64,000 bases of DNA from an uncultured Bacteroidales bacterium. Its GTDB lineage: Bacteria; Bacteroidota; Bacteroidia; Bacteroidales; WCHB1-69. Positions 9,800-35,718 of this stretch are shown one piece after another (the first letter of the stretch is position 1; the number at the start of each line of letters is the position of its first letter). The stretch spans positions 220,121 through 284,120 of the forward strand of contig OMYJ01000003.1 in assembly GCA_900315245.1 (NCBI GenBank), given 5' to 3'. The notes beneath the pieces were generated by a model. That model was not told the DNA's origin, searched no databases, and saw nothing but the letters and a program-made list of their open reading frames with translations. The position numbers were made by a program, and so were the translations under genes.

Positions 9800-12373
9800 T
9801 TAAAGCACCGTCACCGTTCCCTTCTTGACATACCTCTTTTTTTCTCCAAGGCGCTCATAGTGTATGATATAGACATACACATCTGATACATGCACTCTCA
9901 TCCCGCTTCCTTTGTCGTCAATGTTGCCGTACCATCGGAAATTCATGTCGTTGGTCTTGAAAACCAACTCTCCCCATCGGTTATAAATTTCCATGTCAAA
10001 ATAACTGATGAAACGATGCACATATTCGGGAAGGTAAAAATAGTCATTCAGACCATCCGTTCTGGATGGAGAAATACCGCTCGGAAGGAAGATGTTCAAC
10101 GGACAGTCAGGGGTTTCATAATGGCTGGTTGCCATGCAGTCACCCTGGGTCACCGTTACCGTGTAGAGGGTTTGTGGCGTGGTGACAGAAATAAACTGGG
10201 TGGTGTCGCCCGTGCTCCAAAGGTAATCATCATAGTCAGACACCGCAGTCAGCACCAGCTCACCGAACTCGCAGAAATCGTCGCCAGAGGGGACAATCTC
10301 CACCGAAGGTTCCTCGATTTCAAGATGCAGGGTCACGAGGCTGTCGCAGCCATTCACATCCGTCAAGGTCTGATCATAGTCACCGCTGGTCCTATAGGTT
10401 TGGCCGTTCCACGTATATTGGTTGCAAGCTTTTTTGGAAAATTCCCCGAAAACGCTGTCCCGAACTTTCAAGTGCAAAATCAGCAGACTGTCGCAACCGA
10501 ACTCGACAGTTTGCGTGACAACTGTATCTACAATGGTATGGGGAACCACAGTACTGTCAATTGGAATATCGAAACCGTTTTGGGTGTAAGCGACACCAGG
10601 GCAGATAGTGTCGTACAACACCGTGTCAACAATGGGATGAACCATGATTTTAATGGAATCGGTCATTAGAGGATCTAATGGACATCCTCTTGAGTCGTTG
10701 GCAATAACTGTGTACCATCCACTGTCTGATGGCATGGCATTGTCTAGTTGAAATGGGGGTGAATTAATTTCAAAATTATTGGGTCCAAGGATACGTAGAA
10801 TGGACGCATTAATCGAATCAAAATCGAAAAACATCGTATCCCCCTGACAATAATCCGGAGGAGATGACCAGTGGATCTCACTCCCCGACACATAGCTGCT
10901 GAAATAGCTGATGGAACAGTCATCGTAACCACCAGGCTGATGATAATCAATTACACCCATGTGAAACTTACCGACAGAATTGGAGACCTTAATATATTGT
11001 CTGGTGGCGTAATTGCTAATGTCTTTCTGGCAATAATACATAGACGGGCTACCCGAAACTGTATGCCAATCCGATGCCGCTATTTGGATATTGCCTGAAT
11101 TTGTTTGAATTTGAAATCCTTCTGTGATTTGGTTCGATCCATATACTGAAAGTTGAGTGCACACTAGATTGAGGAATATATATTTCTGGTCATTATTGGG
11201 ATGAGGTAACGGTCGATATGTAACTGTTTGTGACCCGGTGCAATTAATTTGTGGCAACTGGGTACCGCCCAACTCGTTGCCAGCGCCAGTCAGTTGAAAC
11301 ACGAAAAGCTTCCTCGGACTGCGCGTTCCATCTGGATTTTCATGATAAGCGCGAATATAGGCAGGCTTGTAATTCGTGAAATGGAATTTACGTTTATCAC
11401 CACGCATTAAATTCTGATACTGTGTGCTTTCCTGATTCCCAGAATTTGTCTCATAGTAAATAGTAACATCTGTATTGTCGTCCAGCACGAAGATGAAAGC
11501 GTAGTCGCTCATACCTCCACCCGTCGTGGAATTGCCGGCAGCACTAGGCGATGGAAAAACAACATATTCACTTCCCGCTAAATCTTCGGGAACGATTTGG
11601 TCGGCAACCAAATCATAATTACCAGAACCGTTTCCTGGATTGACAGAATCGTCAGAAACATCTACTACAATAGGTTTATTAGACGTGATAATAGTCCCAT
11701 CCAAGTGGCCTGTGGCTGCCTGTGAGTTTGAAGCAAGACAATAAACCTGACCTCGCTGCAAAGTAATCGAAAAGGTGCTACCAGCTTGATGCTGATTACT
11801 ACCGGTGCCACAAGTCTGCGACGGGGTAATGGTAACCGTGGTGTTGTCCTCCGTGGCAATGATCTCCACTGCATTGCGACAAGTACCGTAATAACTGTCA
11901 CTTTGATTGCCATTACCTGTAGTATATTGGAACTGCATGGGCACAAAGAATTGTGTTCCCAGTGCGTTTTCCCCTTTTAATGCATAGATTTCACTATTAT
12001 TGTTTTGCAATGCAACATACGCATTGATTTTTCTGTTGGATTGTATGTACAACCCATGTGGAGATATCGTATTATACTCGCATTCGTACCCATTGAGGCC
12101 AGCTTCATTGGAAACCAACGTCATCGTTGCTGACCCGTTTGCGGGAACGGTGAGAGGAGTGCCGACCTGCTGTCCTGAAGCGGCCTTGGTAACCGTCACA
12201 GTGGCCTGCTGCGATTCAGTATTGGAAACCACCAAGACAATAGGCCAATGAACGTGGGTATGCGCCAGTTTCGGCACCGCGAACCAGAAAGCCGTATCGA
12301 CTTGCGAAAAAACATACTGGTTGCCGCATAACAAAACCAGGGCAAACATCAATCTTTTTATTAAACGCCTCAT
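9800..12373 (-). CDS. Large secreted protein with IgGFc-binding-like N-terminus and T9SS type B sorting domain
   Basis: A cell-surface or secreted protein of 857 residues. The signal peptide [18 protein letters not shown] is followed by a beta-rich region (about 25-500) resembling the IgGFc-binding N-terminal domain, including an [13 protein letters not shown] strand pattern. Next come an Ig-like segment and two GCDSLL/GCDSLV-type repeats. The last 95 residues form the gliding-motility/T9SS type B C-terminal domain ([17 protein letters not shown], then [11 protein letters not shown]). I prefer the ATG at 12373, which has AAAAGGA upstream; the ATG at 12397 lies almost at the predicted transcription start. 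Ligands are unknown. It is divergent from glyA. Confidence 0.85.
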
Positions 12374-12401
12374 TTCAAATATCCTTTTATTGTTCATGCT
12401 G

Positions 12402-12409
12402 CAAAAATA
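12402..12409 (-). promoter_or_regulatory. -7 promoter box of the T9SS type B protein gene
   Basis: TATTTTTG on minus followed by CAGC; transcription should start near 12397, favouring the internal ATG at 12373 as start codon. Confidence 0.6.
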
Positions 12410-12433
12410 AGATTTTTTGTAATAGAAAAATTG

Positions 12434-12441
12434 TATCTTTG
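12434..12441 (+). promoter_or_regulatory. -7 promoter box of glyA
   Basis: TATCTTTG on plus, 55 bp upstream of the glyA ATG. It lies back to back with the divergent T9SS gene promoter. Confidence 0.65.
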
Positions 12442-12496
12442 CATTTTCAATCATAATCTGTTAAAAACATCATTATCAAACAGTTATATTAAAAAT

Positions 12497-13827: not shown

Positions 13828-15279
13828 TTATCCTCTTTTCTTCCCTTCTTTCGGCTTTTTTTCCTTTTTCGGGTATTTTGCCCACCAATTCTTGTAATGT
13901 CCCCAGTTGAAAACAACTCCTGCGGTGGCAGTCAGCTGGGAAACATTCTTGACCGAAAATGCAGCAATGATATTCTGCGTGCCGGCATAGATGTTCAGAT
14001 AGCCGAGGTTGAACCCCAATCCCACACCAAGATTATCGTAAGAATTGCGCTGTATGGTATAAGCCACACAAACGTCTATGGAATTAAAGAAACATCCATC
14101 ATAAGCCAACGTGAGGGAGGGCTGAAAATAGTTTTTTGTGAATACGAACTGCGTGGCGGCACTCACACGATGATGCTTGGCAAATTCATAATCCAGTTGC
14201 AAAACAGCCCTCGGAGTAATCGCCGTCATATAACGCCCCGTCGGGTTGACATCCAACGGGAAATATTGTGCCAAAGTATCCAATATATCTGAAACATTCT
14301 CCCCATTCATCAGCGATTGGATTTCAGATTGGGACAATCCGCTGAACGTCAATGAACCATTGTCGTACAAGCCACCAGCATTGTCCAAACTGCTGCTCAA
14401 ACCCACCGTGGAGGTCGTCCAGTTGATAAAGCCAAGATCCAGAACTCCAACAGACAATCCAAGCGACTCCATAAAGTTGTAGGAAAAGCCCAAGTCTATT
14501 CCGAATCCCGGATTTTTAAAAGCATTCTTCAAGATTCTCCCAACATTGTCATCCATTTCAAACAGGAAACCGTCTTGTCTGTTAAAAGCCAGATTAAACG
14601 GCACAATAGCGGCGGCACGCATGGCGGCAGCATACGTCATGCTGATCGTATAGTCATCCGGGGCTGTGCTCACCTGGGCGGAAAGATTCTGGGTGTTCAA
14701 ATTGGCTATGCCGAAAAGCACTTTCGGACGCACTCCCCACGAAATCTTGTCATTGACCTTGTGTCTGAAGCTGATACCCAGTTCCTGGTAAGCGTTCATG
14801 TTGATAGACAAGTTCAAGTCGGCAGGGCTGTCAACGTACGCCATGTTACCATAAATAGGCAGACCGAGGACATCCCGGGAATATATGAAGTCCAAGTTGG
14901 CGCGCTGCCGATAATCCACCGACATGAAGAAACGATCTTTGATCCGGAATCCTACACCGAGCAACTCTATGTCATCATATACGCCCACGTAGTTTTTGTT
15001 GGCAAGACTGTTCACGAACTTCGTGGCAGTCAACACCGTCGGATAACCTTCCTCATTGGTTTCGAAAAGGTTCTTGTAACGAATGGCCCCCAAGTTCACA
15101 CCAGCCTGTATTTTCCCGGTGGGAAGACTGAAATAACCATTGTAAATGGTGGAGCTGGAGGGGAGATCGTTGTGCAAGAACGGCGAGATACGCATAAAAT
15201 GGGTCACATCCAGACCCTGTCCTTTCACGGACAGAACCAGACACAAACCCACGAACAATGTTAAGACAATCTTCTTCAT
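13828..15279 (-). CDS. DUF5723-family outer-membrane beta-barrel protein
   Basis: A 483-residue exported protein. A signal peptide (about 1-20, ending VKGQ) is followed by the family pattern of alternating strands of an outer-membrane barrel, with a PFLHNDLPSSSTIYNGY start, GFGIDLGFSYNF and a closing GVVFNWGHYKNWW. The tail is lysine-rich. DUF5723 proteins are found across Bacteroidetes and have no proven function. It lies 12 bp downstream of a large lipoprotein gene in a minus-strand run that begins with an ECF sigma factor, so the lipoprotein and barrel may act as a pair at the outer membrane. Confidence 0.8.
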   Translation of the reverse strand: MKKIVLTLFVGLCLVLSVKGQGLDVTHFMRISPFLHNDLPSSSTIYNGYFSLPTGKIQAGVNLGAIRYKNLFETNEEGYPTVLTATKFVNSLANKNYVGVYDDIELLGVGFRIKDRFFMSVDYRQRANLDFIYSRDVLGLPIYGNMAYVDSPADLNLSINMNAYQELGISFRHKVNDKISWGVRPKVLFGIANLNTQNLSAQVSTAPDDYTISMTYAAAMRAAAIVPFNLAFNRQDGFLFEMDDNVGRILKNAFKNPGFGIDLGFSYNFMESLGLSVGVLDLGFINWTTSTVGLSSSLDNAGGLYDNGSLTFSGLSQSEIQSLMNGENVSDILDTLAQYFPLDVNPTGRYMTAITPRAVLQLDYEFAKHHRVSAATQFVFTKNYFQPSLTLAYDGCFFNSIDVCVAYTIQRNSYDNLGVGLGFNLGYLNIYAGTQNIIAAFSVKNVSQLTATAGVVFNWGHYKNWWAKYPKKEKKPKEGKKRG

Positions 15280-15291
15280 AACAGTCCAGAT

Positions 15292-16866
15292 TTAATTCCC
15301 TAAACTCACCAAACCGTTTACATCCACATTCATTCTGGCGGACAATCTGAAGCGAACAGCATGTGCCACATTGATGGAAATAGGGGTGCCATCTGTATAG
15401 AGGCGGGCTTTGAGAATGATGTTGTCGCAGTTGAACATTTGCTGAACTTCTTCAAAGTTGTTCTTGGCGGCAAAAAGCTCACTCATGCGGGGTATGCCAT
15501 TCTGAGCGCTCAAAACCAACTGCGGCTCCGTGAACAGACTGTCCTTCACCGTGGCTGTCTGCGAATCATAGAAATAAGCCTGCAATTGGAAGTTCAAGGG
15601 CAAGCCGTTGTCAATTCCGAGGCGAAGCAGCAAATTGGTAAATGCCGATTCGGACGGAACATTGATGCCGCCAAACGGAATCGTGTCACAAAAGTGTATA
15701 TTATCCATATCCACCTCTAACGGGAGAACCACAGAGATGCGCAGACTGATATACTGGTTGTCGCGAAACACCAACGTAGGGGTGTTGAAGCCATCGGGGT
15801 TGATCACCGCGTTGCCTCTGAGCTTAAAGTGACTATAGTCAGGGGAAAGCAGCAACGAGTTGGCTATCGGCAAGCTGACAGGGACGAATTGGTTGGTATT
15901 GGCAGGCACCTCCACTGTCGCGGGCGAATACGCGAGCAGCGATGCCATATTGCCGCCACCTGAAAGATCCGCCTGCTCAAACACGAGGGTCCCTCGCACC
16001 GGGAAACTGTTCATGATTTCGCACGTCACCTGCGGATTCAGCAGCGTCATGTTGCCGGAAATATGATCCCGCAGAAATTGGGTGTCGAAATCCCACTCCT
16101 TGTCCACTGGGAGATCCACCGCGACAAACCTTCCTCGTATCTCCTTGAAAAGGACCTGCTTGAAAGCCGCTCTATAGCTGAACGACAACTCGTTAGGAAT
16201 CGATGCCGTATTTGCGTCACAGGAAACTTCAATCAAGATTTTTATCTCGTTGTCGGCGGGAACAGTGAGTGTATAACCATCAATATTAATCGTGGTCACA
16301 TAAGTTCCGCCGTTGGACTGTGCTTCCACATGAAACGGTTGACCTGAAGCGCTGACCAGTTGCGGGCAGGTGACAACTATCCGTGTCGTCTGCATAATAT
16401 TGTAATTGATCTGCAATTCAATCTGACCCGAATTCAGTATGGCGCTTTCCAAAAGAATCTCGTCGGCAGGGAACTGGGCAAGCAGCGTGTCACTATACAA
16501 CAGCTGCACGTTCCCTTGAATCGGCGGGAGCTCAACAGAAGAAAACGTTTTGGATCCCTCCACGGCAATATCTTTCTGGAAATACGAATCAAGATATTTT
16601 GACGCGGAGATAATCGAATCAAAGGTGTACTCGTAACGAAGCTCGACGGTCCCGTCACTACCTTGTGAAATGAAACCGACATCATCGCTCAAGTCCAGAA
16701 TATCACCAATGGTATATTCAGCATTGAGCAACGGGAATCCCCAGTCGCCATTACTGTCTATTTCATCAAGTTGTGAAAAATCGAATGCATTGTTGTTACA
16801 GCCGATGAACGAGGCCAACATCAGCATAGCCACAACAGGGAATAAGTAATGTGATTTTTGTCGCAT
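15292..16866 (-). CDS. Large uncharacterised lipoprotein upstream of the DUF5723 gene
   Basis: A 524-residue lipoprotein with lipobox SFIGC (Cys23), followed by an Asn-rich spacer. The rest is predicted all-beta with repeated hydrophobic strands and no recognised catalytic motif; phrases such as TYVTTINIDGYTLTVPADN suggest stacked beta-sandwich domains. I do not recognise a characterised family. The ATG at 16866 is chosen; an upstream TTG-initiated extension lies in the promoter. The start codon is inside an inverted repeat (16854-16894). The gene ends 12 bp before the DUF5723 barrel gene, so the two are co-transcribed. Confidence 0.75.
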   Translation of the reverse strand: MRQKSHYLFPVVAMLMLASFIGCNNNAFDFSQLDEIDSNGDWGFPLLNAEYTIGDILDLSDDVGFISQGSDGTVELRYEYTFDSIISASKYLDSYFQKDIAVEGSKTFSSVELPPIQGNVQLLYSDTLLAQFPADEILLESAILNSGQIELQINYNIMQTTRIVVTCPQLVSASGQPFHVEAQSNGGTYVTTINIDGYTLTVPADNEIKILIEVSCDANTASIPNELSFSYRAAFKQVLFKEIRGRFVAVDLPVDKEWDFDTQFLRDHISGNMTLLNPQVTCEIMNSFPVRGTLVFEQADLSGGGNMASLLAYSPATVEVPANTNQFVPVSLPIANSLLLSPDYSHFKLRGNAVINPDGFNTPTLVFRDNQYISLRISVVLPLEVDMDNIHFCDTIPFGGINVPSESAFTNLLLRLGIDNGLPLNFQLQAYFYDSQTATVKDSLFTEPQLVLSAQNGIPRMSELFAAKNNFEEVQQMFNCDNIILKARLYTDGTPISINVAHAVRFRLSARMNVDVNGLVSLGN

Positions 16867-16930: not shown

Positions 16931-17740
16931 CTACGATCGAATTATTCTCACTTTTCCCGTCGCTTGGCTTTCTATGCCATTATACTTAAAGGTGAATTCG
17001 TAGCTATAAACTCCTTCGGGACAATTTTCGCCTCCCCAATTGTTTTTATATGCATCACTTTGATACACCACCCTGTTGTTTTTATCCCGTACCGCTAATT
17101 TCGGGGAAGAATAATTCTCCAAGCCCTCAATCACAAAGAGATCATTGACCCCGTCATTGTTCGGTGTGAACAAGTTAGGGATACTGAGATGAACCGGCAA
17201 CGACCAATCCACACTGTCATCGGAAAGGTTCTTCAAAACCGGATCAGCGGCCAACTGTCTGGCCAGCGTTGAGTTGGGTGGCAGCACTATCTGACGTACA
17301 TTGGTGTTCGGGACTGATGCTTCAGTATGCTTTGGCGATTGGACTTTCTGTTTCTCCACCTCTTTGTATTCTTCATCACGAGGTTGCTCTGCCCTCTCTG
17401 TCCCCGTCACCACCGGAACCACATCTGTTTCGACCGTTTCCATCGGATCTGCCACAACAGTCACTTCTTCAACCGTTTCTGTTTCAGGCTCTTCCACATT
17501 ATTTTCAGCAATCACATTCTGATTTCCGCGATTATGCAAAAGAACGCCCAACAACAACGCACCTCCTACAATCACAGTCGTCAATATGGCTGCCGTCCAT
17601 TTCCAGGCTTTTTTGCGATGAAGTTTATATACATCTCCCACCTGCGGCATCTCCTTGTCAAGCCGGGAGTCCAACCGTTTCCATACATCCGCAGAAGGAG
17701 TCTCCTCGTATCCTTTCAGCAAATCATTTACGCTCTTCAT
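16931..17740 (-). CDS. Anti-sigma-like membrane protein with a T9SS type B C-terminal domain
   Basis: A protein of 269 residues with an unusual layout. Residues 1-45 are cytoplasmic and contain ADVWKRLDSRLDKEM, which matches the W..L.S.L motif of Bacteroidetes anti-sigma factors. One transmembrane helix follows (about 48-68, AAILTTVIVGGALLLGVLL). Residues 75-155 are an acidic, Pro/Thr/Glu-rich linker. The last 80 residues, beginning IPNLFTPNNDGVNDLF, with a VRDKNNRVVYQS strand and ending GKVRIIRS, are a gliding-motility/T9SS type B sorting domain. It lies 66 bp downstream of an ECF sigma gene. The likely role is to hold that sigma factor and respond to a surface or secretion signal. Confidence 0.8.
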   Translation of the reverse strand: MKSVNDLLKGYEETPSADVWKRLDSRLDKEMPQVGDVYKLHRKKAWKWTAAILTTVIVGGALLLGVLLHNRGNQNVIAENNVEEPETETVEEVTVVADPMETVETDVVPVVTGTERAEQPRDEEYKEVEKQKVQSPKHTEASVPNTNVRQIVLPPNSTLARQLAADPVLKNLSDDSVDWSLPVHLSIPNLFTPNNDGVNDLFVIEGLENYSSPKLAVRDKNNRVVYQSDAYKNNWGGENCPEGVYSYEFTFKYNGIESQATGKVRIIRS

Positions 17741-17806
17741 ATTGCAATTAATTATTGTCCAAACATTTAATTTCGTATCCCCTCACCCTATAAATCTCTC
17801 ATTTTC

Positions 17807-18355
17807 TTATTCTCCAATCCTCTCCATCAACCATTTCCGCGCCCGCATGTAACAGATGCGGATGGCATTCTCTTTCTTCCCCAGTTTTTCAGCGATTTCC
17901 TGGAAGGAATACTCTTCCACCGCTTTGAGGTTGAACACCAGCCGCATTCCATCGGGCATCTGCTCCAACATTTCCAACAACTGTTTTGCCGCCAATGAGG
18001 CCACTATATTCTCCTCTTCTGCAAATTCCTCTCCCTCAACCACATCATCGGAAAACAGTTCCTTGCGGAAACGTTTCACCGACCGGTAGTGGCTGACGGC
18101 GGTGTTCACCATCACGGAATAAATCCAGGTGTTGAACGAGCTTTCCCATCTAAAGGTCGGCAAGCTTTTATAAACCCGCATGAAGCCCTCCATCAACATA
18201 TCCTCCGCTTCTTCACGGCCGTTCGCGTACCGCAGACAAACTCCATACATCCTCGGAGCATACCTGTCGTACAACCGGTGCTGACTCAAACGATCATTGT
18301 TCAAACAACCGTTGATGATTTCCTGGAGTTCTGAATCTATTTCCGTCACGTTCAA
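17807..18355 (-). CDS. ECF-type RNA polymerase sigma factor
   Basis: A 182-residue sigma factor with region 2 (LYDRYAPRMYGVCLRYANGREEAEDMLMEGFMRVYKSL split over 28-65; core-binding and -10 recognition) and region 4 (about 125-178, YSFQEIAEKLGKKENAIRIC, a helix-turn-helix). The linker is acidic (VVEGEEFAEEEN). No in-frame ATG precedes region 2: the reading frame meets a TGA upstream, and the start is a TTG at 18355 or a GTG at 18349, implying weak translation. It is followed by its probable anti-sigma partner and lies 43 bp after the DUF4837 gene on the same strand. Confidence 0.88.
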   Translation of the reverse strand: MNVTEIDSELQEIINGCLNNDRLSQHRLYDRYAPRMYGVCLRYANGREEAEDMLMEGFMRVYKSLPTFRWESSFNTWIYSVMVNTAVSHYRSVKRFRKELFSDDVVEGEEFAEEENIVASLAAKQLLEMLEQMPDGMRLVFNLKAVEEYSFQEIAEKLGKKENAIRICYMRARKWLMERIGE

Positions 18356-18398
18356 GTCTGTCGCACGAAGTGGTCATTTTGTTACATCAAAAAAAAAT

Positions 18399-19382
18399 TT
18401 ATTGTATTGATTTCACAATTGCCTCAACCTCACGGAGATAATCCCTTTTATGTTCTTGCGGCGCATACACAAAACCGTCGATCGTGATACACGAGGTGCT
18501 GTCAGGGGCGACTTGGGTGAAACTATAGAACGGTCCGCCCATCTTGTCACGGACAGAAGCCCATAAGCCTCTCAACTCCACACCGTTATGATAGCGGATG
18601 TTTTTTTCTTTGGCCATAGGATACCCTTCAATGTCCGCAACAATCGGATAGGCACCCGCCACAGCGCCCTGGATGTAGGCTTTCGTGATGCGGTCACGTT
18701 CCGCCACGATATTCTCGGTGGTCAAAGCATAGCGAGGGGACTTATAAATCATCACGAAACGATCGTTTTTCGGGGTGCGGAAAAGCAGCCAAAGGAAATC
18801 CTCCTCTTCGCGCCCTACGAAATAGCCCTCCGGAATCGTCATCGAAATTCCGAACTTCTCCTTGATTTTCTTCTCTATCACAGGATTGTTCAATTTACGA
18901 TGGGCGTTCTGCAGTCTGGCGATGTCATTTTCATACATCGCCTTGACTATCTCGTCCTGATGCGCAAGAAAGAGTTTCAGGCAAGAATCCTGACTGTTTC
19001 CCTTGATTTTCACCAGAATTTGCGGATTTGTAAGCGGATTTTTGTCGATTTCAAAACTATTAACCGAATAATCCGGGTTAAAATCGAACTGCACAATATT
19101 TCGGTGACGCATGAACGACGCTCTGTAGTCGGCGTTGGAACACTGAATCACATCAAACATCGGTTCGATTTGATTGATGGCCGGTTGCGGCTGATGCAGC
19201 ACATCATAGATGGCCGTCATGGCTGACTTCGACCAATAGTTGGAATCAATGGCCAGAATCATTTCTCCAGCCTTGCCTGTGGAAAAATTCTCCACTTTTA
19301 TGCCCGAACCGCCCGACTTTGTATGACAGGAGGTCATGGACAACAACACTATCACTAATGCAAAACAACTGATTTTCTTCAT
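18399..19382 (-). CDS. DUF4837-family lipoprotein
   Basis: A 327-residue lipoprotein with lipobox SMTSC (Cys19). The segments EMILAIDSNYW, NQIEPMFDVI, FMRHRNIVQFDF and TIPEGYFVGREEEDFLWLLF match what I remember of the DUF4837 family of Bacteroidetes. Function is unknown. It sits directly upstream of the ECF sigma factor on the same strand and divergent from dprA; whether it belongs to the sigma operon is unclear. Confidence 0.78.
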   Translation of the reverse strand: MKKISCFALVIVLLSMTSCHTKSGGSGIKVENFSTGKAGEMILAIDSNYWSKSAMTAIYDVLHQPQPAINQIEPMFDVIQCSNADYRASFMRHRNIVQFDFNPDYSVNSFEIDKNPLTNPQILVKIKGNSQDSCLKLFLAHQDEIVKAMYENDIARLQNAHRKLNNPVIEKKIKEKFGISMTIPEGYFVGREEEDFLWLLFRTPKNDRFVMIYKSPRYALTTENIVAERDRITKAYIQGAVAGAYPIVADIEGYPMAKEKNIRYHNGVELRGLWASVRDKMGGPFYSFTQVAPDSTSCITIDGFVYAPQEHKRDYLREVEAIVKSIQ

Positions 19383-32784: not shown

Positions 32785-35718
32785 TTACCTCACCAGCGTC
32801 ACCGTGCCCGGATATTCCATCTCCTCACCGTTGAGATTGACCAACCTGATTTTATAGACATACACCCCTTCGGGGCACATCTGTCCGTGTTTGTTGCGAC
32901 CATCCCAGTAATCGTACGGGTTTTTCGTGGAGAATATCAACAAGCCTGAGCGGTCGAAAATCTGCATGGAATAGTTATCGGGATCGACACCTTCGCCCTG
33001 CGGGGCAAACCTTTCGTTCAATCCATCGCCATCCGGGGTGAAAGCATTGGGGATATAGAAGAAGTAGGGGACTTTGACCGACACTCTTGCCTTGACAGAA
33101 TCCACGCAGCCGAACGTATCTATAGCCGTCATCGTGATGGTGTAGAAGCCGGAGCGCGTGTAATCGTGTGTGGGTTCGTTCAAATCCTGAATAATGTTGA
33201 CGTTGGAGAAGGCATCCCCGAAATTCCATATCAATTGGGGATAGTCATCGGAGGTGTTCGTACACTGCACCGAACCAATTCCGTTTTCCACGAAGATTTC
33301 CGTAGGATAGGCGGTGAATGAGGGCTGGGGCAAGGGCATCACCACCACAGTGAACGTGTCACTGACATCGCAGTCGCCAACCATAGTGGCCGTTGCCACA
33401 TAATCCGTGGTGATTTGGGGAGAAACTGTAATGACGGTATCTTTATCATTGAAGATTGTGTTATCCGCAACGGTACTCCATTTGAACTTGTTGGTGTCAG
33501 GGTGCGTAGCCTCGAGGGTATAGGACTTTCCGAGACAGATGGAATCCGTATCCGAAACGGAATTCCTGCCCGTGATGGTAGGCATCACCAACTCAGTGAT
33601 GGCCACCTTCACCGAATCGCGCCGCGTGCAGCTGTTCTCAAACTTCACTGTCACGTAATAGGTGGCGGTATCTATGCCGACAGGTGCGCACACCGTGTCA
33701 ATGGCAAAGGTGTCCTTCTTGCTTGAGCTCCACGTGTAGCCGCCGTAAAGGGCCGCACCAATGTTCAGGGAAGGATCTATCTCCACGGTCAGGAACACAG
33801 AATCGCCGGGACAAACAGGCGTGTTCCCGTTACTGCTTACCGGCTTGATTTTGGGGATGTTCACGTTGATAATAGTGGTGTCAAGTTTGACAATCTCATC
33901 AAGAGCTGCATTAATATACCTATATTCAGAGATATACATAGTGGTATCTGTTGGACTTACTGTGATAATGCGATTTGTTCTGGCATGCGGATCGTAGCTG
34001 ATAATGTGGTTTGCATCCACCGTGTCCTTATACCAAGTCAATTCACCATTTTCGTCCAATGGGGTAATAGGTGTAAAGCGCCATGCTTCGCCATTGTTGA
34101 CAGTCCATGTGGAATTAAAATTACGCCCAGGCACAGTCAAGATTTGCGAGGATGTTTTGTTCTGCAATCCGATAACGCCCAAACCATCGTTCCAAGAAGT
34201 ACAGCAAGCACGGTGTTTAATATACACGTCAATAATACAGGTTCCCTCATAAAATACCATCTGATAGGTGTTATACATATTGGAGCCTTGGGAACAGCAA
34301 CTGAACAATCCCATATTATTATAATTGAACAAAAAAGCTCGACATGGATATTGTCCTACCACCCCATAGTTAATTGTTCCGTTCTGACTACAGCTATTAT
34401 TATTAGGATTAATATCTTCATACACTTCATAAGCAGAGTGAGCATAAAAATAAGGTGGGGTAGAATATGGTGGAGTTGTAGGTGGAACATATGTATCCCA
34501 CTCGCAAAAACTCCCAGCGGAATGAGGATTAAAGGAGATAATTCCGTTAGAGCTTGGATATAATGTAGTAAATCGATTACCGAAAAAGCTGAAAGAAAAA
34601 GGCAAATTTACCGCTCCCAGCCACTCATCATCCGTATTGGCATCCACAATATTAGGCCCTGCATCATATCCAAATAGCATTTCTTCCTCATTATACGGTA
34701 TCTGCTTAACCGTATAGTCATTGGTGTATTGTCCAGTAGCAATCACATTAGCTTGAAGCACGACCACCGGTTTGGAGCAATCGAACTCAATCACTTTCGG
34801 ATCTGGAGAGTCAGCGTAGAGACCCCCTGGGATATTTGTCACCGAAGGGCAAGGATTTCCGTCTTCACTCTCAAACAGCTCCGCCTGTTGGGAAATGATG
34901 GCTCTCCATCCTGATTTGTTGTTATCAGCATTACCGCCACTTACATACTCAAACGCAAGCGTACCGGTAGAAGAAAAGAAAATTGGGGGCATATTATTGG
35001 TTGTGGCATCCAACGTGGAGGTGCAAAACTGTCCAATCAATCGTCTGTTTGCTACATCATTGTATTGGCCATCATATATCTTCAGCACCCCGCCCACCGA
35101 AAACTGAGTAAACTCGCACTTGATATGCGTGCCCAACGGGGAGGTGAATTCAGTAAAATTATTAACCGATGCACCATTTGCATTAATATTTCCAGTGCCA
35201 CCAGCATCATAGAAGATGGCATTACTGGTAACTACAGTAGTATATTCCCCATAGTTGATTTCCAAAGGAACGGTGTCATAGGCATACACCTGTGCTTTCC
35301 AACCATCCTGCAAACCGGGAATGTTCATCGAATCGGAATGAAACACAAAGGTCATTGTTTTTCCCGATGCCAAATGTTCCCTCGGGGAGTTCACAAGATT
35401 ATAGTACCCAACTAAATGGTTATTATCACACTGGGAAGCGTCTCCATCAAAGAGCCACAGCGTATCACCGTCACCCATGGCAAATTCTTCAAACAAGACA
35501 TACAATTTCGTGGTACTCATATTGGTACGCAACGTAATAGTATCGCGCAAACCTTGGGCAAAATAACCCGTGCCACCGGGATCGTAAAAATACCTCGGCT
35601 GGTCATCAATGTCGCCCACAAATGAAGTAGTTCCCATGATAATGTCACCTTGTCCCGCAACCTTTTGCCAAGGGACAAACAGCAGCAGCAGTATGCTTAT
35701 TTTAAGTAGTTTTTTCAT
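32785..35718 (-). CDS. Giant multi-domain secreted protein with T9SS type B sorting domain
   Basis: A 977-residue surface protein. A signal peptide ending VAGQ is followed by two CUB-like domains (about 35-150, YFYDPGGTGYF and GDTLWLFDGD; and 165-285, IFYDAGGTGN and LKIYDGQYN). A nidogen-like region follows (about 360-560, FSFSFFGNRFTTLYPSSNG, Cys-rich). Ig-like segments, a PKD domain (about 800-875, LIWNFGDAFSN and GFYTITMTA) and the type B sorting domain (IPNAFTPDGDGLNERF to the end) complete it. It is likely exported by T9SS and displayed for adhesion; no enzyme motif is visible. A weak CAAACTTTGC promoter lies just upstream. Confidence 0.85.
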   Translation of the reverse strand: MKKLLKISILLLLFVPWQKVAGQGDIIMGTTSFVGDIDDQPRYFYDPGGTGYFAQGLRDTITLRTNMSTTKLYVLFEEFAMGDGDTLWLFDGDASQCDNNHLVGYYNLVNSPREHLASGKTMTFVFHSDSMNIPGLQDGWKAQVYAYDTVPLEINYGEYTTVVTSNAIFYDAGGTGNINANGASVNNFTEFTSPLGTHIKCEFTQFSVGGVLKIYDGQYNDVANRRLIGQFCTSTLDATTNNMPPIFFSSTGTLAFEYVSGGNADNNKSGWRAIISQQAELFESEDGNPCPSVTNIPGGLYADSPDPKVIEFDCSKPVVVLQANVIATGQYTNDYTVKQIPYNEEEMLFGYDAGPNIVDANTDDEWLGAVNLPFSFSFFGNRFTTLYPSSNGIISFNPHSAGSFCEWDTYVPPTTPPYSTPPYFYAHSAYEVYEDINPNNNSCSQNGTINYGVVGQYPCRAFLFNYNNMGLFSCCSQGSNMYNTYQMVFYEGTCIIDVYIKHRACCTSWNDGLGVIGLQNKTSSQILTVPGRNFNSTWTVNNGEAWRFTPITPLDENGELTWYKDTVDANHIISYDPHARTNRIITVSPTDTTMYISEYRYINAALDEIVKLDTTIINVNIPKIKPVSSNGNTPVCPGDSVFLTVEIDPSLNIGAALYGGYTWSSSKKDTFAIDTVCAPVGIDTATYYVTVKFENSCTRRDSVKVAITELVMPTITGRNSVSDTDSICLGKSYTLEATHPDTNKFKWSTVADNTIFNDKDTVITVSPQITTDYVATATMVGDCDVSDTFTVVVMPLPQPSFTAYPTEIFVENGIGSVQCTNTSDDYPQLIWNFGDAFSNVNIIQDLNEPTHDYTRSGFYTITMTAIDTFGCVDSVKARVSVKVPYFFYIPNAFTPDGDGLNERFAPQGEGVDPDNYSMQIFDRSGLLIFSTKNPYDYWDGRNKHGQMCPEGVYVYKIRLVNLNGEEMEYPGTVTLVR

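Follow-up and report, generated by a model that had tools for sequence, protein, structure and literature searches.

A 64,000-nucleotide stretch of DNA from an uncultured Bacteroidales bacterium (the window) encodes, side by side, an ECF sigma factor and a 269-residue protein in which a putative sigma-binding N-terminus, one membrane helix and a long acidic linker are joined to a type B C-terminal sorting domain (CTD) of the type IX secretion system (T9SS). Based on sequence comparison and structure prediction, the best reading of this protein is a trans-envelope anti-sigma factor that would couple expression of T9SS cargo to the T9SS. We are aware of no mechanism by which bacteria with a T9SS adjust the making of cargo to what they can export, and a search of the open-access literature found no anti-sigma factor bearing a T9SS sorting domain. 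If the reading is correct, cargo synthesis may track the export capacity of the T9SS, and a T9SS sensor that itself carries the sorting signal, together with a predicted cargo regulon, reduces the question to simple promoter-reporter tests.

Domain organization of the sigma factor and its partner

The original prediction described an ECF sigma factor and a 269-residue partner, and both genes are present at the stated coordinates, on the minus strand. The sigma gene (17807..18349, minus strand, 180 aa) matches PF04542 (3.7e-17), PF08281 (6.6e-13) and TIGR02937 (1.3e-28) in profile searches. Its start required correction: the ORF list opens the gene at a TTG at 18355, but a comparison of sigma upstream regions showed that a GTG at the position of window 18349 is kept in most same-genus relatives, and we therefore set the start at this GTG and regard the TTG as probably wrong. 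A -10 element, conserved and of ECF type, precedes this GTG by 10 nt, such that the sigma message would be nearly leaderless.

The partner gene (16931..17740, minus strand) encodes 269 residues and was characterized by family models, an alignment of its homologs (A1) and a predicted structure. Residues 1-35 (17636..17740, minus strand) form a putative sigma-binding segment that is modeled at an overall pLDDT of 50-68 and contains two helices (residues 4-9 and 17-30; pLDDT 60-68). An anti-sigma-type motif had been proposed for the N-terminus. W20 is an invariant column in A1 and an N-terminal tryptophan is kept in 53 of 53 family members; the match of residues 6-96 to the NCBIfam 'anti-sigma factor' model NF052375 is sub-threshold (E 1e-3), and the 13 of 33 homologs that match this model also do so below its cut-off (best 4.8e-8). 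A single transmembrane helix follows at residues 46-69 (17534..17605, minus strand), supported by a Kyte-Doolittle peak of 2.48 at residues 50-68 and by a modeled helix spanning residues 42-72. The next segment, residues 73-184 (17189..17524, minus strand), is a predicted disordered, acidic periplasmic linker as judged by pLDDT (<50 at 74-142 and 144-149), length and charge, with the acidity in its first part (19 acidic versus 7 basic residues in 73-150), and a genus-conserved segment, NSTLAKQLAADPVLKNLSD, precedes the CTD in A1. At ~113 residues and 0.36 nm per residue the linker has a contour length of ~40 nm, which is sufficient in principle to span the periplasm.

The remaining 84 residues (186-269; 16934..17185, minus strand) constitute the type B CTD, modeled as a four-stranded sheet at pLDDT 86-96, mostly above 90. 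Residues 186-261 match both CHU_C PF13585 (4.2e-16; 59.3 bits against a cut-off of 27) and TIGR04131 (2e-10; 40.7 bits against a cut-off of 35), and TIGR04131 is found in 33 of 33 A1 members at E<0.01. When the CTD model was compared with solved structures using VIA-align, the best match was 8glk_D, the T9SS-bound NucA CTD (Z 9.0, rmsd 1.9, 73 aligned residues). Two further T9SS substrate CTDs, 8gl8_D (Z 8.1) and 8gl6_D (Z 8.0), were also among the best matches, and all three come from structures of the F. johnsoniae translocon with the domain in place. Against the same model, unrelated beta-sandwich proteins score up to Z 8.4, with many at Z 6-8; fold by itself is therefore no proof of the domain's identity, and a Foldseek search with the full-length model gave no match at E<0.001. 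Our assignment is based on the HMMs together with VIA-align, with the sequence models carrying the main weight. With this, the single membrane helix, acidic linker and type B CTD that had been described from the sequence are all borne out, as is the expectation that the CTD would adopt a T9SS-type structure.

Family models identify the CTD as a true sorting domain, and the protein might accordingly be no more than a standard secreted type B cargo encoded next to a sigma gene by coincidence, its membrane helix serving as a signal peptide. We rejected this reading. Across the 53 family members, the earliest hydrophobic core begins at position 42, whereas an N-terminal Sec signal peptide would need one that starts in residues 1-30; in addition, the N-terminal tryptophan is universally kept and a sigma gene is adjacent in every complete locus checked. 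We consider it highly improbable that the protein is cargo of this kind.

One feature does set these CTDs apart from those of cargo. The other type B landmarks are present in 53 of 53 family members, but the RWG motif is absent from its usual position in all 53, compared with its presence in 66 of 111 cargo CTDs, where the 53 are related by descent and represent only ~5 lineages (the genus family plus L032, L037, L092 and L115). Because RWG is absent, the anti-sigma CTDs might escape reading by the ordinary T9SS machinery, and lack of the motif could signify either that the domain is still bound, though not exported, or that it has lost contact with the T9SS altogether. The latter possibility is taken furthest by a scenario in which the domain has been repurposed to sense a periplasmic peptide or glycan with no T9SS contact. 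Loss of RWG throughout the family fits such a change of function, as does the commonness of the small beta-sandwich fold among unrelated proteins. Nonetheless, retention of all other type B landmarks, recognition of every A1 member by TIGR04131 and predicted targets that are T9SS cargo (see below) argue against it, and we judge a repurposed ligand-binding domain to be improbable.

Conservation of the gene pair

The original prediction could be probed by looking for the same domain order next to sigma genes elsewhere, and this order recurs consistently. An ECF sigma gene directly adjoins the anti-sigma-CTD gene in all 28 complete loci of the genus and in all 20 loci taken from 13 further genera of this Bacteroidales family, hence in 48 of 48 complete relatives spanning 14 genera. 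Farther away in the Bacteroidota, three loci (L032, L037 and L092, of which L092 belongs to a Crocinitomicaceae MAG) also have an adjacent ECF sigma gene. By contrast, a phylum-wide survey of a 296-genome sample with A1 at a strict E-value found a sigma gene near none of the 29 best outside loci; those inspected encode ordinary cargo, several followed by PorP-like genes. Together, the distribution of homologs suggests that the anti-sigma-CTD architecture is ancestral and near-universal in the family and rare outside it. Co-occurrence with the T9SS says nothing within the family, because SprA is found in 104 of 104 family genomes.

The present genome harbors a second ECF sigma/anti-sigma-CTD pair (L115 and L247:3932-5435; contig C15, ~108.4-109.9 kb), whose anti-sigma-CTD gene is followed, back to back on the same strand, by an M16-like gene and a gene for a 696-aa type B cargo protein.

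We also examined the genes surrounding the pair. Upstream of sigma, a DUF4837 gene (window 18399-19382) terminates 13 nt before the predicted sigma promoter, and its coding tail (EVEAIVKSI-stop) can be seen directly before sigma in the majority of loci of the genus as well as in several other genera, suggesting that it may be part of a conserved sigma neighborhood. On the other side of the pair lie a putative lipoprotein gene in the same orientation (15292..16866, minus strand), which has no family match, and a gene for a DUF5723 protein that is probably an outer-membrane barrel (13828..15279, minus strand; PF18990, 2.1e-67). These two were considered as dedicated partners of the sigma/anti-sigma pair and rejected, as they adjoin it in only 4 of 21 loci; we treat both as accessory.

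Predicted promoter and regulon

A predicted autoregulated ECF promoter, TGTAACAAAATGACCACTTCGTGCGAC, is located at 18360..18386 on the minus strand, with TGTAAC as its -35 and CGAC as its -10 element. It was recognized from upstream conservation, its motif being kept upstream of sigma in most same-genus relatives, and it is the sole match at up to two mismatches within the window (0.02 expected). We derived the promoter motif from sigma operons alone and used reversed-pattern controls to gauge background. The loose pattern TGTAAC-N17-CGWC has ten matches in this genome, nine of which share the longer pattern TGTAACRAAAT-N10-TGCGAC, the sigma promoter being one of these nine. Allowing up to three mismatches to the longer pattern returned nine exact sites, none at one or two mismatches and 22 at three, the last figure being at background level (17 in the reversed-pattern control).

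All nine exact sites are positioned just upstream of a gene start. One precedes the sigma operon itself, and the others precede a small secreted protein gene followed by a gene for a 954-aa type B CTD protein; two genes for type B CTD proteins of 448 and 370 aa; a gene for a 679-aa type A CTD protein (TIGR04183 over cut-off, PF18962 just under) followed by a DUF6624 protein gene; a gene for a FISUMP protein of 487 aa in which a type A domain is internal; a gene, truncated where the contig stops, for a secreted protein of IgGFc type; and two genes for probable lipoproteins. Three of the eight non-self promoters lead to genes without a recognized CTD. Even so, type B CTDs are enriched among the targets (3 of ~11 genes versus 15 in the genome; p=2.8e-5), as are type A and type B CTDs taken together (p=2.0e-5), where both values assume ~2,500 genes in the genome. 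The T9SS machinery genes that we located in the genome, SprA and three PorP-like genes, carry no copy of the motif. Overall, the predicted regulon appears to consist of T9SS cargo and not T9SS machinery.

In the FISUMP (Fib_succ_major) target (L193:403-1866), the type A sorting domain is situated mid-protein, at residues 102-173, and not at the C-terminus. Two more CHU_C proteins are encoded in the window, at 9800-12454 (884 aa, IgGFc-type) and 32785-35718 (977 aa); the sigma promoter motif is absent upstream of both genes.

The composition of the regulon bears on the direction in which the system would signal. The CTD had been envisaged as a decoy substrate, with sigma released when secretion is blocked. 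Such an alarm, in which CTD left free or unsecreted would report that export is failing and sigma would be liberated when the T9SS is jammed, would be in keeping with most envelope-sensing ECF/anti-sigma systems, which respond to stress. A feedback in the same direction, acting on machinery genes, has moreover been proposed for PorA of P. gingivalis (PMC7712824). The predicted regulon instead comprises cargo and the sigma operon, with no motif copy at SprA or the PorP-like genes, and extra cargo synthesis during a block would worsen that block. Thus, the independently predicted regulon strengthens the proposed link to the T9SS, but release of sigma upon blocked secretion looks less likely, and we regard a blocked-secretion alarm as an unlikely explanation.

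We further asked how far the regulon extends to relatives. In three genomes (G011, G034 and G031), the same motif is found upstream of the sigma operon and of the operon encoding the small protein and the ~950-aa type B protein, or its equivalent, as well as before several proteins whose C-termini we read by eye as type A or type B CTDs. In a sub-clade in which the anti-sigma is only ~30% identical (G012, G016 and G028), a related motif lies upstream of both the sigma gene and the operon orthologous to that for the small protein and the ~950-aa type B protein, the small proteins being orthologous at 34-36% identity. A loose pattern applied to these three genomes also returned several other sites inside genes or upstream of unrelated genes, and because these include intragenic sites, our claim for this sub-clade is limited to the shared type B operon target. 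The genus-specific strict pattern, TGTAACATT..., found little beyond the self site in the second sub-clade, and no self site in G013, G020 or G025; for G013 and G020 this null is uninformative with regard to the regulon, because their own sigma upstream regions read differently.

The small (~150 aa) secreted protein is a conserved predicted sigma target (L186:3858-4310, L194, L202, L244, L245 and L246; alignment A2) and is always encoded just before the ~950-aa type B CTD protein. It has no Pfam match, and its model (pLDDT 84) resembled no solved fold above Z 2.3 in a second-look structure search.

Proposed mechanism and comparison with known systems

How might a sorting domain on an anti-sigma factor control cargo genes? 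We propose that residues 1-35 would hold sigma at the inner membrane and that the periplasmic CTD would be recognized by the T9SS or by a PorP/SprF-type shuttle, in competition with real type B cargo. Engagement of the CTD would then pull on the tethered anti-sigma or expose it to proteolysis, freeing sigma to switch on its own operon and the cargo genes, and cargo filling the docking sites would in turn displace the CTD such that sigma is held again. For the core of this proposal, namely that the CTD reads out engagement by the T9SS or a shuttle and that sigma drives cargo genes, we lean towards its being correct.

The direction of signaling is modeled on FlgM and sigma-28 (FliA), in which the anti-sigma factor carries a flagellar type III export signal and the sigma factor controls late cargo genes. 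The logic would be alike, in that the putative anti-sigma factor bears a sorting domain of the very system, the T9SS, that exports the cargo its partner sigma is predicted to transcribe. The present system differs in its membrane tether, its periplasmic C-terminal signal, its use of an ECF sigma and its connection to the T9SS as opposed to a T3SS, and it has no homology to FlgM: no FlgM model was among the Pfam and NCBIfam matches up to E=1. By this analogy, working secretion would engage the tag and free sigma, a direction that we put forward tentatively. It fits better than the reverse because the predicted regulon is cargo, and release during a block would add more of it. As for a complete T9SS checkpoint, in which an idle T9SS or shuttle engages the tethered mock substrate and frees sigma for type B and some type A cargo, we consider this possible while giving it somewhat less than an even chance.

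Type B CTDs bind PorP/SprF-like shuttles (PMC12618676, PMC9143113), and this genome has three PorP-family genes versus ~15 type B cargo genes, which makes it conceivable that the CTD and cargo compete for such shuttles. More broadly, ~74 genes of the genome encode type A sorting domains and ~15 encode those of type B, versus the three PorP/SprF-family genes, and with so few of these genes type B cargo must either use shuttles in common or rely on other proteins in their stead. The 269-residue protein resembles shuttle-associated type B cargo (PMC12618676; PG1035, PMC9143113) in CTD family and predicted fold, whereas such cargo is made with a cleavable signal peptide and RWG is usually present; in the anti-sigma-like protein the membrane helix is internal, behind a cytosolic segment, and RWG is absent. 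A different parallel is provided by PorA of P. gingivalis, a CTD protein acting upstream of PorXY-SigP (PMC7712824). In both cases a T9SS CTD protein is linked to an ECF-sigma pathway connected with the T9SS, but PorA is a surface CTD protein that acts via a two-component system and controls machinery genes, whereas here the CTD is carried on the anti-sigma itself and the predicted targets are cargo.

In overall plan, the closest comparison is with the dual membrane-spanning anti-sigma (Dma) family of Bacteroides thetaiotaomicron, in which Dma1 and Dma2 are found with Das sigma factors (PMC13088901). Dma proteins possess an N-terminal sigma-binding region, one membrane helix, a long disordered tether and a C-terminal beta-barrel, and are encoded adjacent to an ECF21-family sigma gene (PMC13088901). 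The 269-residue protein has in common with them the membrane helix, the long disordered tether, an outer-membrane-directed C-terminal domain and the adjacent ECF sigma, with an N-terminal sigma-binding region that is here putative. It differs in ending in an 84-residue type B T9SS CTD where Dma has its barrel, and in a predicted regulon of T9SS cargo where that of Dma concerns vesiculation and PULs. Because we looked for the defining barrel and found none, we do not file the protein as Dma; the best reading from its sequence is a Dma-like variant. If so, it would widen the Dma idea to trans-envelope anti-sigma factors with exchangeable outer-membrane modules.

The same resemblance raises the prospect that the CTD merely docks the tether to an outer-membrane protein, as an anchor or envelope-integrity sensor whose signals are unrelated to secretion traffic. 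Both the plan shared with Dma (PMC13088901) and the loss of RWG from the anti-sigma CTDs are what such a sensor would lead one to expect, yet the regulon is enriched for T9SS cargo and not for envelope-repair functions, making this alternative doubtful in our assessment.

Other arrangements of ECF sigma genes were also encountered. At L111:966-2718, an ECF sigma gene and a gene for a 173-aa anti-sigma-like partner with neither CTD nor barrel lie beside a separate barrel-like gene, possibly a split version of the Dma plan. At four further loci of this genome (L113, L114, L116 and L117), the ECF sigma is fused to a hydrophobic segment and then a tail with TRTVVLHDTITVTDTVY-like repeats at its end, giving what look like sigma factors tethered directly to the membrane, and several of these are followed by a gene whose product, probably an outer-membrane protein, has matching DTVYV/DTVRV repeats.
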